Assembly (NCBI GenBank): GCA_949292335.1
Contig: CASEYY010000045.1
Location: forward strand, 1 to 32,476
Source: an uncultured Pseudomonadota bacterium
GTDB lineage: Bacteria; Pseudomonadota; Alphaproteobacteria; RF32; CAG-239
Length of the DNA: 32,476 bases
Reading direction: 5' to 3'
The first letter of the stretch is position 1. Each line of letters starts with the position of its first letter. Positions 4,274 through 22,166 of this stretch are shown piece by piece. The notes beneath the pieces are model-generated. The model was not told where the DNA came from, searched no databases, and saw only the letters and a list, made by a program, of their open reading frames with translations. A program made the translations under genes and the position numbers.

Positions 4274-4331
4274 AATAAAAATACCTACCCTTGCCGGTAG
4301 GTATTTTTATTTGGAGAGGATTATCCTCTTT
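4258..4331 (+). repeat. Direct repeat copy A: tRNA-Pro 3' end plus terminator
   Basis: This covers the last 16 bases of the tRNA (CCTCTCGTCCCGACCA), the terminator hairpin, and the palindrome AGAGGATTATCCTCT. It recurs almost unchanged at 4438-4512 (one A moved or gained). Such 3'-end duplications are what tRNA-targeting integrases leave as attL/attR (established knowledge); no integrase gene is present here. Confidence 0.85.
4273..4312 (+). terminator. Terminator of tRNA-Pro
   Basis: A perfect 17-bp stem, AAATAAAAATACCTACC (4273-4289) with GGTAGGTATTTTTATTT (4296-4312), loop CTTGCC, directly abutting the tRNA CCA end. Confidence 0.85.
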
Positions 4332-4399
4332 GGCTTCTAATTTCGCCGCGGGCAAAGTTTTGCCCTCGCTCAATAAGATGTTCCAAAGAACTTGCAGAC

Positions 4400-4427
4400 A
4401 AAAAACGCCGGAGCAACGGCGTTTTTT
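4400..4427 (+). terminator. Hairpin terminator between the two direct repeats
   Basis: AAAAAACGCCG (4400-4410) pairs with CGGCGTTTTTT (4417-4427), loop GAGCAA. It is an orphan: no gene lies in the 106 bases between the repeats, so it is probably a relic of something lost. Confidence 0.6.
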
Positions 4428-4437
4428 ACTTAGCGTT

Positions 4438-4512
4438 CCTCTCGTCCCGACCAATAAAAAATACCTACCCTTGCCGGTAGGTATTTTTTATTTGGAGAGG
4501 ATTATCCTCTTT
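4438..4512 (+). repeat. Direct repeat copy B: orphan tRNA-Pro 3' end plus terminator
   Basis: It repeats the final 16 bases of tRNA-Pro including CCA, followed by a second near-identical terminator (4453-4492) and the AGAGGATTATCCTCT palindrome. No tRNA body precedes it. The last bases run into the 3' end of the restriction endonuclease gene on the other strand (stop at 4511-4513). It is a candidate attachment-site remnant bordering the restriction-modification cluster. Confidence 0.8.
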
Positions 4513-18752: not shown

Positions 18753-18769
18753 AACAGGGCTTTCCTGTT
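18753..18769 (-). terminator. Terminator or attenuator at the tmRNA-sspB junction
   Basis: On the minus strand AACAGG-AAAGC-CCTGTT is followed by T residues, ending 18 bases before the sspB start. An alternative pairing, GGGCTT (about 18783-18778) with AAGCCC, uses overlapping bases and would compete with it. Confidence 0.6.
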
Positions 18770-19069
18770 GCTAGGTAAGCCCCAAACCCCACTTAAAGCA
18801 CTCCATGGCCTTAAGAATTTATTGTGTTGCAACTACCAATTAGGCAGCGATAGCAACAGGAGCTACGTTATTATCGTTAGCATTCATTTTAATTTGAACC
18901 GATAACGGTGGTATCTAACCGAACACAGCCTACCCATCTTTACTATACCCTGTCAAACCTGTATCGCCCCCTCAAAAAAAGTATTGGTGGAGGCGCCGGG
19001 TACCGCCCCCGGGTCCAAAGCATCTATTTCATAGAGCCTCTAGTGTCATAGTCGGTAAAACCGACATTT
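18753..19069 (-). ncRNA. ssrA: Circularly permuted (two-piece) tmRNA
   Basis: On the minus strand the acceptor part comes first and ends GGCGCCTCCACCA (CCA at 18987-18985). A 13-base spacer follows (18984-18972), then the coding part starts GGGGGCGATACAGG at 18971. The first seven bases GGGGGCG pair with CGCCTCC of the acceptor part, so excision of the spacer restores the tRNA-like end. The tag ORF reads ANDNNVAPVAIAA then TAA (18881-18840), a typical alphaproteobacterial tag. It rescues stalled ribosomes with SmpB. The T-arm stem CCGGG/CCCGG has a loop GGCGGTA instead of TTCRANY. Ends are approximate; the order of parts is the alphaproteobacterial permuted form. Confidence 0.93.
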
Positions 19070-19075
19070 AGTAAT

Positions 19076-19104
19076 ATAATACCTCTACAGCGAAAAAGCA
19101 ACAA
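19076..19104 (-). promoter_or_regulatory. Candidate tmRNA promoter
   Basis: On the minus strand TTGTTG (19104-19099) and TATTAT (19081-19076) are separated by exactly 17 bases. Transcription would start near 19069, just before the acceptor part. Confidence 0.6.
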
Positions 19105-19197
19105 AAATTCTTATCTCTTCTTTGTGGAAAAACAACTTTTGCAATATTTATTTTTAACTTTGTTATATGATTAAAAAAAATTTGGGAGTCTTTTACC

Positions 19198-19771: not shown

Positions 19772-20560
19772 ATGAAACAGTATTTAGATTTGTTGCAAGA
19801 CATTTTAGACAACGGACAAGATGCCAACAACCGCACCGGTATCTACGCCAGAAAAGTTTTCGGAAGGCAAATGCGGTTTGATTTGAGTAAAGGATTTCCT
19901 TTGGTTACAACCAAAAAAGTTTATTTGCGTGCCATAATTCACGAATTGATATGGTTGTTGTCGGGCAATACCAACATAAAATATTTGCATGACAATAATG
20001 TTACAATCTGGGATGAATGGGCAGATGAAAACGGTGATTTGGGACCAGTTTACGGACATCAGTGGAGGAACTTTAATTCGCAAGGGATTGATCAAATCAA
20101 AGATGTAATCGAGCGGATAAAGAAAAATCCGCAAGATCGCAGGTTGATTGTTACGGCGTGGAATCCGGCTCAAATTGATGAAATGGCCTTGCCTCCTTGT
20201 CACTGTTTCTTTCAGTTTGATGTGACACCGGATGGCAAGCTTAACTGCCAATTATATCAGAGAAGTTGCGATATGTTCTTGGGCGTGCCTTTTAATATTG
20301 CTTCTTATGCTTTATTAACCATGATGATTGCTCAGGTTTGCGGACTTAAAGCCGGAGAATTTGTGCATACCTTAGGCAATGCTCATATTTACTCAAATCA
20401 CTTTGAGCAAGTAAAATTGCAACTGTCGCGTAAGCCCTATCCGTTGTCGGAAATGAAAATTAATCCTAATGTCAAAAACATTGATGATTTTAGGTTTGAA
20501 GACTTTGAGCTGGTCAACTATCAGTGCCATCCGACCATTAAAGGTGATGTGGCTGTTTAG
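19772..20560 (+). CDS. thyA: Thymidylate synthase
   Basis: A 262-aa enzyme converting dUMP to dTMP with methylene-tetrahydrofolate, producing dihydrofolate for the adjacent reductase. The catalytic cysteine is C143 in [11 protein letters not shown]. Other conserved parts are [36 protein letters not shown] and [10 protein letters not shown]. Length matches E. coli ThyA (264). ATG 19772 follows AAGGAG at 6 bases, which decides against the upstream ATG at 19739 inside folA. Ends at a strong terminator. Confidence 0.97.
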
Positions 20561-20584
20561 AAATCAGTGAAAAGGAAACTCCTT

Positions 20585-20622
20585 AACAAGTGGCAACTTT
20601 TGCGGTTGTCACTTGTTTTTTT
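20585..20622 (+). terminator. Terminator of folA-thyA
   Basis: AACAAGTGGCAAC (20585-20597) pairs with GTTGTCACTTGTT (20605-20617) with one G-U pair, followed by a T-run. Confidence 0.9.
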
Positions 20623-20735
20623 ATAGAATGAAAGCCGGTGCTCTTATCACAAGAGGGCCGGCTTTACTCAATGACAAAAGCTTCTTAGAAAAGGTAAGTT
20701 ATGCTTCACAGCAAGAGGCCTCACCTTTTTTTGAA
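20623..20735 (+). other. Gene-free stretch with two hairpins, possible small RNA
   Basis: A nested hairpin AAAGCCGG/CCGGCTTT with inner CTCTT/AAGAG spans 20631-20665. It is followed by a terminator-like structure AAAAGGT (20689-20695) with ACCTTTT and a T-run ending near 20732, which encloses a TGCT-TCAC-AGCA hairpin. Two ordered hairpins ending in a terminator resemble an independent small RNA. I see no convincing promoter. Confidence 0.35.
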
Positions 20736-20830
20736 AACGGAGAGAAATCGGGGTCGGTGTACTTCGGTACTTCGACTTTCCTAAGGTAGAAATATTCCGT
20801 GACGCACGCCCGAAATGATTTCCCTCCGTT
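20736..20830. repeat. Structured repeat, copy 1 (63-nt core within a 14-bp stem)
   Basis: The outer stem AACGGAGAGAAATC (20736-20749) pairs with GATTTCCCTCCGTT (20817-20830) with one mismatch. The core (20750-20812) contains a hairpin GTCGG-U-GUAC-UUCG-GUAC-U-UCGAC and a conserved CCTAAGGTAG segment. A second short hairpin is CGTG-ACG-CACG. The core begins GGGG and ends CCCG, so it can close on itself. The core recurs at 20856-20917. Confidence 0.85.
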
Positions 20831-20841
20831 ATATTGTTAAA

Positions 20842-20936
20842 TTAAGAGAAGGTGTGGGGTCGGTGTACTTCGGTACTTCGACTTCCTAAGGTAGAAATAT
20901 TCCGTGACGCACGCCCGTAATAACACCTTCTCTTAA
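20842..20936. repeat. Structured repeat, copy 2 (62-nt core within a 14-bp stem)
   Basis: The core at 20856-20917 is identical to copy 1 apart from one missing T. The outer stem is unrelated in sequence but perfectly complementary: TTAAGAGAAGGTGT (20842-20855) with ACACCTTCTCTTAA (20923-20936). Conserved core plus changed but still paired flanks is the signature of selection on structure or of insertion into palindromic sites. Confidence 0.85.
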
Positions 20937-21066
20937 AAATAATTTCTAAAAAATATCCAATCATGATTTTGTACTAGCAGTTATTTTTATCATTGTCAAT
21001 ACTTTTTGGGTAAATTTGTCTTTTTTTGTGTGAACTGTTACAACGAACAATTTTAAAATAAAAAAA

Positions 21067-21110
21067 CCGAGAGGTTTGAGTATCTAAAAAAAAGATAAAC
21101 AACCTCTCGG
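21067..21110 (-). terminator. Long hairpin terminator on the minus strand
   Basis: CCGAGAGGTT (21067-21076) pairs with AACCTCTCGG (21101-21110), with an inner TATCT/AGATA stem. On the minus strand it is followed by TTTTTTTATTTT. It lies 270 bases beyond the DEAD-like gene, so it may end that transcript or a separate small RNA. Confidence 0.75.
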
Positions 21111-21228
21111 AACGTAACATGTGAATCAACCACAAAAGGGGGCTATCACAGCAGCCTTTCATAGTTTTTAATCATTAAAACTTAGGATGTTTTTGCAAAA
21201 CCCCTTGTTTTTTTGTGTTTTTCATGGA

Positions 21229-21276
21229 CGGCAACTTTGCTGGACTGATTGCAAATATAAACAAATCAGGTCGCCG
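21229..21276 (-). other. Candidate structured RNA element downstream of the DEAD-like gene
   Basis: On the minus strand CGGCGAC (21276-21270) pairs with GTTGCCG (21235-21229) using a G-U pair that is a mismatch on the plus strand. It encloses CTGATT/AATCAG with a 13-base loop. The rest of 21111-21383 shows no ORF or other feature I can support. Confidence 0.35.
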
Positions 21277-21383
21277 CGTGTTTATTATTATGGAACATAT
21301 ATAATTAGCATAAATAATCTTTATTGGGTTGTTGGTGTAATCTACTTTTTATAAACTGTCAACCTTTTTTGTATGACACAAGC

Positions 21384-22166
21384 CTAAACCGCCTCGTCTT
21401 CTTTGGCAATTATTCCTTTTTTCAAAATGAACTCCGGTGTTTTGCCATTAAAAGAATTAAACTTCTTACTTAGGGATACTGCTTCCTCGTCAAGCTGCTC
21501 ATTAACACAGACACTGGGCTTTTTTTCTTTTCCTTTGACTGCCGAGATATCCGCTTCCTGCTCTTTGGTCTTGTCTACCTTTATCTCTTCGGGAGTTTTT
21601 AGTATCTTTGACAAAACATCTTGAGTTTCTTTGGAGCGACGATTGGTATATACAATGTTCTGCTTTTCTGCCGGCAACATAACCAAAACTTTTTCTAAAT
21701 TTTCTAACTGCTTGTTCTTTTTTATCAAGTTGATATCATCAACCACCAAAATGTCTACTTTGGATAAGTCAACCTTCAAATTTTCGGCAGCATCCAACAA
21801 TAAATCCGGTGCACCGATGATGACATTGGTCTCATCATCTAAGGTCTCATCTCCGTTGGAAATGGCTGCACCGTTAATCTCGTGATATTTGTTAAAAACT
21901 GCCAAGCAATCGGAGGTCTTCACCGCCATTTGCGAGTTGGCCGTAATTATTAATATGTTTTTGGCTCTTTTGCCGTTGATTATATCCAACAAGGGTAAAA
22001 CATACGACATGGTCTTGCCGCAACGCGTGGGAGCGATGGTAAATATATCCCTGCCCTCCAAAATTGCCGGTATCACATCGGCCTGCACGGTTGTGGGTTC
22101 GGAAATTCCAAACTCATCAATCGCTTTTATGGTTTCTTCACTTAATCCTAATTCCGAAAACTTCAT
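21384..22166 (-). CDS. Degenerate single-domain DEAD-box-like protein
   Basis: A 260-aa protein derived from a DEAD-box RNA helicase but containing only the first RecA domain. The opening MKFSELGLSEETIKAIDEFG and PTTVQADVIPAILEGRD match the Q-motif region. The P-loop is altered to APTRCGKT (usual AQTGTGKT), motif II is VVDDINLI instead of VLDEAD, the PTRELA motif is TANSQMA, and SAT is replaced by YTN. The second RecA domain is absent; residues about 190-260 are a charged tail. It probably lacks normal helicase activity and may be a binding or regulatory protein (inference). It follows the cupin gene by 11 bases on the same strand. Confidence 0.82.
   Translation of the reverse strand: MKFSELGLSEETIKAIDEFGISEPTTVQADVIPAILEGRDIFTIAPTRCGKTMSYVLPLLDIINGKRAKNILIITANSQMAVKTSDCLAVFNKYHEINGAAISNGDETLDDETNVIIGAPDLLLDAAENLKVDLSKVDILVVDDINLIKKNKQLENLEKVLVMLPAEKQNIVYTNRRSKETQDVLSKILKTPEEIKVDKTKEQEADISAVKGKEKKPSVCVNEQLDEEAVSLSKKFNSFNGKTPEFILKKGIIAKEDEAV

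Follow-up and report, generated by a model that had tools for sequence, protein, structure and literature searches.

We identified a pair of tandem hairpins with nearly identical cores in the gap between thyA and a DEAD-box gene in the window, the whole 32,476-nucleotide stretch analysed here, which is contig C45 of a 1.475-Mb alphaproteobacterial genome (G000). The feature is real and unusual, and probably represents a new lineage-restricted family of noncoding RNA genes. The twin units belong to a set of about four predicted hairpins that lies in a putative promoter and terminator context of its own. Judged from the DNA sequence, an RNA gene at this position is well supported, and from this we infer that the RNA is expressed.

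An earlier note on this DNA described twin cores of 63 and 62 nt that differ by a single T, each closed by 14-nt arms that are unlike between the units and yet pair with themselves within each unit. Both descriptions are borne out (Table 1). The unit 2 stem is Watson-Crick at 14 of 14 pairs, one pair of the unit 1 stem reads A.C on the plus strand and G.U on the minus strand, and in both units 4–5 unpaired bases separate the core from the right arm. Of the two readings offered in the note, that of a structured RNA is supported insofar as pairing is kept in relatives and long hairpins recur in place; the strand is most likely the opposite one, and the unit is longer than described. Pairing of the outer stems is maintained in relatives. 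The two stems did not diverge from a common stem, since the sister species have a separate counterpart for each. The duplicated part of the twins, as the sequences indicate, is the core and not the stem.

The gap is gene-free, as the note had it, and spans 823 bases from the thyA stop (20560) to the stop of the DEAD-box gene (21384). The longest ORF starting and ending within it encodes 62 amino acids. At the sister loci L034 and L035 the gap contains no ORF of at least 60 amino acids and the 62-amino-acid ORF is not seen, so a small-protein product does not fit the locus. The core had also been placed outside the known RNA families, and the Rfam search of the window agrees, returning only tmRNA models and a tRNA at gathering scores and none at the locus. 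Relaxing the threshold to E up to 10 produced four Rfam matches at the locus, all far below their cut-offs, and 12 related loci yielded only tmRNA families and one STnc490 match outside the RNA. Pairing is conserved where no ORF is, the combination that characterizes a generic small RNA gene. The RNA is not named in the portions of the literature on related topics that we found, which is not a claim of its absence from print; passages of PMC12306168 concern another taxon and treat no RNA.

The gap appears to hold two tandem transcription units (TUs) on the minus strand, TU1 (21362–21060) and TU2, which carries the twins. In the folds, hairpin A comes first after the promoter and is joined to hairpin B by a linker like UUUUCAAAAUAUA; hairpin C is next, and in relatives it is followed by a U-tailed terminator. 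The relatives' promoter reads TTGACA-N17-TTTATA and lies on the DEAD-gene side, pointing towards thyA (the window's minus strand). TTGACAA was found at 11 of 11 collapsed loci, and a hairpin followed by a T run on the RNA strand occurs in relatives and at TU1. The window's own promoters and terminator are weak, and a consensus scan of 20540–21400 found no promoter and did not call the TU2 terminator. The hairpins, their promoter and terminator context, the minus direction and the recurrence in relatives are supported by computation.

Table 1. Features of the thyA-adjacent locus (positions in the window)
Feature	Position	Strand	Basis
TU1 promoter-like sequence: TTGACA, 17 nt, TACACC	21334..21362	-	weak -10 box
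TU1 hairpin, arms CGGCGAC / GTTGCCG	21229..21276	-	fold; same in G058 and G065
TU1 hairpin, GUGA in loop	21135..21159	-	model R1 12.5 bits, E 0.48, weak
TU1 terminator: stem CCGAGAGGTT / AACCTCTCGG, then seven T	21060..21110	-	fold
TU2 promoter-like sequence: TTGACA, 17 nt, TAGTAC (G065: TAATAC)	20971..20999	-	weak in window
TU2 hairpin A (unit 2 of the earlier note)	20842..20936	-	fold, relatives
Unit 2 arms	20842..20855, 20923..20936
Unit 2 core, 62 nt	20856..20917
Loop element CUACCUUAGGAA in hairpin A	20883..20894	-	mean unpaired probability 0.69
TU2 hairpin B (unit 1 of the earlier note)	20736..20830	-	fold, relatives
Unit 1 arms	20736..20749, 20817..20830
Unit 1 core, 63 nt	20750..20812
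Loop element CUACCUUAGGAA in hairpin B	20778..20789	-	mean unpaired probability 0.67
TU2 hairpin C, inner part UGCU-GUGA-AGCA	20689..20729	-	R1 10.7 bits, E 1.9, not significant
TU2 terminator-like hairpin, no T run after	20631..20665	-	R1 18.2 bits, E 0.0062 on minus; 9.6 bits on plus

A BLAST search with the core against 153 genomes of the family gave matches at E up to 1 in 31 genomes. These are strong only in G000 itself and in the sister species G058 and G065, and the best match thereafter has an E-value of 0.0065. An exact 24-mer of the core occurs in one genome contig (G058) and in no viral contig. The earlier note had looked to many copies in the same genome and its relatives; instead, G000 holds no third copy at E up to 1 and strong matches are confined to three species. 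A weak match in G032 lies downstream of thyA inside a hairpin with a different stem, and close relatives carry, downstream of thyA, runs of long hairpins whose stems differ yet pair.

Counting as a TU any promoter with two or more long hairpins after it, we identified by eye TU-like units, mostly adjoining thyA, in 23 of the 36 genomes of the genus, the remaining 13 having been examined in part only. They are found in G000, G032, G035, G039, G044, G048, G050, G057, G058, G063 and G065, in G033, G037, G051, G052, G053 and G062, in G046 and G061, and less clearly in G040, G041, G042 and G059. Tandem units number two in the window and three in G050, and G033 has one TU 41 kb from thyA and another near it. 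No such array was found in the first 560 bases (361 in one case) of 20 stretches downstream of the DEAD-box gene from 13 other genera. A match in G024, which belongs to another genus, covers the tail of the terminator together with the last part of the neighbouring gene; it was rejected as giving no sign of the RNA.

Contiguous stems (arm of at least 11, loop of at least 10) number 25 across 15 related loci, compared with 3.05 (sd 1.4) in 20 block shuffles. Their density is 2.59 per kb at these loci versus 0.68 per kb in the 20 stretches from other genera, which are partly coding and thus an imperfect control. Units 1 and 2 fold with z-scores of -2.8 and -3.7 on the plus strand and -4.4 and -5.6 on the minus strand. 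All 15 of 15 TU transcripts fold at z -3.0 to -8.4, with the more extreme value on the RNA strand in 13 of them (the exceptions are G037a and G037b).

The earlier note had described a UUCG-capped hairpin. This cap exists on the plus strand only; on the minus strand, taken here as the transcribed one, the loop is CGAA. We set a plus-strand RNA with a UUCG cap aside because of the direction of wobble changes, the promoters and the terminators, and the RNA most likely lies on the minus strand. Among the sister species G000, G058 and G065, five of five arm substitutions produce G.U on the minus strand and A.C on the plus strand (chance 0.03). Hairpin A carries two of them, one per arm, and the 3' arm of hairpin B the other three, all different C-to-U changes. 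For the RNA of G051, G052, G053 and G062, a manual count over columns 110–577 of the consensus fold gave 17 pairs changed on one side and still paired, four that become A.C and four changed on both sides; the RNAalifold covariation term for A3 of this RNA is +2.64, which is unfavourable. Wobble counts of 23:8 in a strict scan and 23:4 in a TU-only scan do not differ significantly from the 21:11 of control loci (Fisher P 0.58 and 0.13), and a loose stem scan gives 107:92, with no bias.

The promoter pattern occurs at 38 places in 21 of the 36 genus genomes, versus 6 for a reversed control pattern. Seventeen of the 38 were assigned to TUs, and 11 of the other 21 (L159–L162, L164–L170) were read as protein-gene starts or chance and dropped. 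Nine C/terminator hairpins follow a common plan, in which a C stands opposite a C or U and four pairs of changing sequence lead to a GUGA-like loop. Within this set 96.6% of 117 cells pair and 11 of 13 pairs have changed on both sides, a count that is partly circular because the set was picked by eye for pairing. The hairpin model R1, built from these nine, gave 25 matches at E up to 1, spread over 14 of 36 genomes and including its own nine members, and recovered one new TU (G033 C6:46531, 37.4 bits). Among the places read beyond the members and G033 (L174, L176–L180, L188, L189), three (L176, L180 and L189) proved to be terminators that follow tRNA or other RNA-like stretches, three (L174, L177 and L188) did not look like TUs, and L178 and L179 (in G064 and G043) may be TUs elsewhere. 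R1 serves as a helper and not as proof, because ordinary terminators also score, and it is not specific, because window palindromes at 4276–4489 outrank the window's own hairpins. These palindromes are two near-identical stems (4276–4309 and 4456–4489) near a tRNA. L188 (G040 C2, around 225720) contains a GUGA-loop terminator preceded by tandem repeats whose hairpins centre on CGCAACTTTCAGTTGCTCAGGGG.

Of the 7-mers containing three or more G/C, GCCAUAG and UUUGCCA occur most often, each at 7 of 11 collapsed loci compared with at most 5 in 40 shuffles; the GCCAUAG count is partly post hoc because the motif was first noticed by eye. The 8-mer GCCATAGG was found at 5 loci, a count that shuffled sequence also reached (maximum 5). 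Loop motifs are predicted to be unpaired with a mean of 0.68 over 13 sites, versus 0.35–0.49 for whole transcripts. GCCATA is missing from both window TUs and from G050a, G050b, G035, G037a and G037b, and among the later-found TUs G033 and G052 hold GCCAUA. The corresponding loop in the window is CUACCUUAGGAA, and G057 (CUACCCUAGGAA) and G032 (CUACCUUAGGAA) hold one each beside a GCCAUAG loop. The element CUACCYUAGGAA occurs once in G057, once in G032 and twice in the window.

An AUA indel is present in both G000 cores, in one G058 core and in neither G065 core, a distribution that fits conversion between cores. Contrary to this pattern, the one-T difference between the cores tracks the unit in G000 and G058. 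We infer from these sequences that the CUACCUUAGGAA core may have been copied into a neighbouring hairpin in the window's ancestor.

The reading we favour, with about even odds, is that the locus encodes a new lineage-restricted multi-hairpin noncoding RNA, from two tandem genes, whose repeated loop sites serve a trans partner in a sponge-like manner. Window positions 21362–20631 on the minus strand would then comprise two tandem noncoding RNA genes with the twins in the second, and the TU2 transcript of about 340 nt would be a string of independent long hairpins. The stems would be free to change as long as pairing persists, acting as scaffolds that expose GCCAUAG and its relatives, CUACCUUAGGAA in the window, together with a GUGA-capped hairpin. 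The repeated loop elements would be putative binding sites for one trans partner, either protein or RNA, and the molecule may act like CsrB/RsmZ, as a decoy or sponge with multiple sites. Copying of one hairpin's core into its neighbour's stem could have given rise to the twins and doubled the site. A trans-acting RNA with several like sites is the most economical reading, and the sponge step is offered as an analogy and not as evidence.

CsrB and RsmZ carry several stem-loops per RNA that expose a short repeated element. The RNA at this locus would resemble them in this arrangement; unlike theirs, its repeated element is GCCAUAG-like and not GGA. By eye, GGA is found in some loops (AGGAAG) and not in others (AGGUAU, AGGUCA, GUGAGG), so that a repeated GGA is not a feature of this RNA. 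A search for CsrA, which recovered it from 3 of 14 known genomes used as a control, detected it in none of the 36 genus genomes; with CsrA absent, CsrB was rejected. A sponge role for CsrB/RsmZ is described in passages of PMC12047976 and PMC4894983.

A broader proposal, which we hold only tentatively, is that this is a new class of multi-site, non-CsrA sponge RNA in which stems turn over almost freely, GCCAUAG-type loops persist, and neighbouring hairpins exchange cores, so that the number and kind of sites evolve by gene conversion. If real, the family would be nearly invisible to sequence search, as core BLAST clearly identifies three species where position, promoter and pairing suggest 23 of 36 genomes. 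It would also offer a clean case of structure kept during sequence turnover and of core copying that alters the number of binding sites; a lineage that lacks CsrA might, moreover, prove to use sponge regulation.

It is rather unlikely that the TUs are instead ordinary base-pairing sRNAs, arisen as tandem duplicates, whose loop seeds pair with mRNA start regions and whose long stems only stabilise the molecule. CCUAUGGC, the complement of GCCAUAGG, does contain an AUG, and the units come with promoter and terminator contexts of their own and are tandemly repeated in the window and in G050. Tandem noncoding genes of one kind are also known in alphaproteobacteria as the homologous sRNAs AbcR1/AbcR2, according to passages of PMC3712013. 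However, the AUG complement is lost in the window because the seed there reads CUACCUUAGGAA, and several long hairpins per RNA exceed the needs of a seed. In addition, the RNA at this locus has no Rfam match and carries several long variable stems, unlike the compact conserved AbcR RNAs.

Both strands of the locus fold, and its long palindromes would be able to extrude as DNA, as might be expected of a cis-acting DNA structure (a cruciform, or a recombination or replication site) from which no RNA is made. We consider this improbable, since the wobble direction is one-stranded in the sister species and the promoters and U-tailed terminators of relatives lie on one strand. GC skew follows gene direction without a switch of its own, and a replication terminus was rejected because the skew follows the genes.

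Ten related loci show the layout promoter, RNA, terminator, small basic ORF, which is reminiscent of type III ToxI in that an RNA gene precedes a small ORF; the RNA would then be an antitoxin, and the ORF a toxin that was lost in the window. The likelihood of this is very low, as the ORF family occurs in 12 of 36 genus genomes and is absent from the window's genome though the RNA remains. The ORFs have no significant match to a toxin family, and the predicted fold (pLDDT 85.6), which combines a four-stranded sheet with two helices, found no PDB or viral counterpart at E 0.001. Furthermore, a ToxI-style row of short like repeats is not seen in the RNA, whose hairpins differ in sequence except for the twin cores. 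We set the type III toxin-antitoxin reading aside, there being no toxin in the window's genome. The ORF itself encodes about 95 amino acids, is basic and fast-changing, and lies between the RNA and thyA (L040:1148-1438, L071:2783-3082 and eight other loci).

A palindromic mobile repeat (REP, MITE or RPE-like), in line with the palindrome-seeking element that the earlier note had entertained, is hardly credible despite the long inverted repeats that flank a repeated core and the fast turnover, as neither a third core copy in the genome nor a phage or plasmid match was found at E up to 1, the core occupies one identical, orthologous place in three species, and several dispersed copies were not found. 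On the plus strand the core (TCCTAAGGTAG...AATTCC) resembles what we take to be a segment of 23S rRNA domain IV. A 23S mimic was rejected, as the loops of relatives depart from this short likeness (CCAUAGG), the minus strand would be its complement, and cmscan gave no rRNA match.

The DEAD-box gene on the far side of the gap (21384–22166, minus strand) encodes the first helicase domain only and is most like RhlE. Pfam DEAD was found without a helicase C domain, NCBIfam matches fell below cut-offs, and yet at E 1e-40 the gene was found in 139 of the 153 genomes of the family. The STnc490 match (L158:604-711, 68.4 bits) lies at a contig end in G062, right after the second RNA copy; STnc490 is linked to an IS200-type element. 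On the other side of the window's gap, a permuted alphaproteobacterial tmRNA (18753–19105, minus strand) is located upstream of the dihydrofolate reductase and thyA genes.
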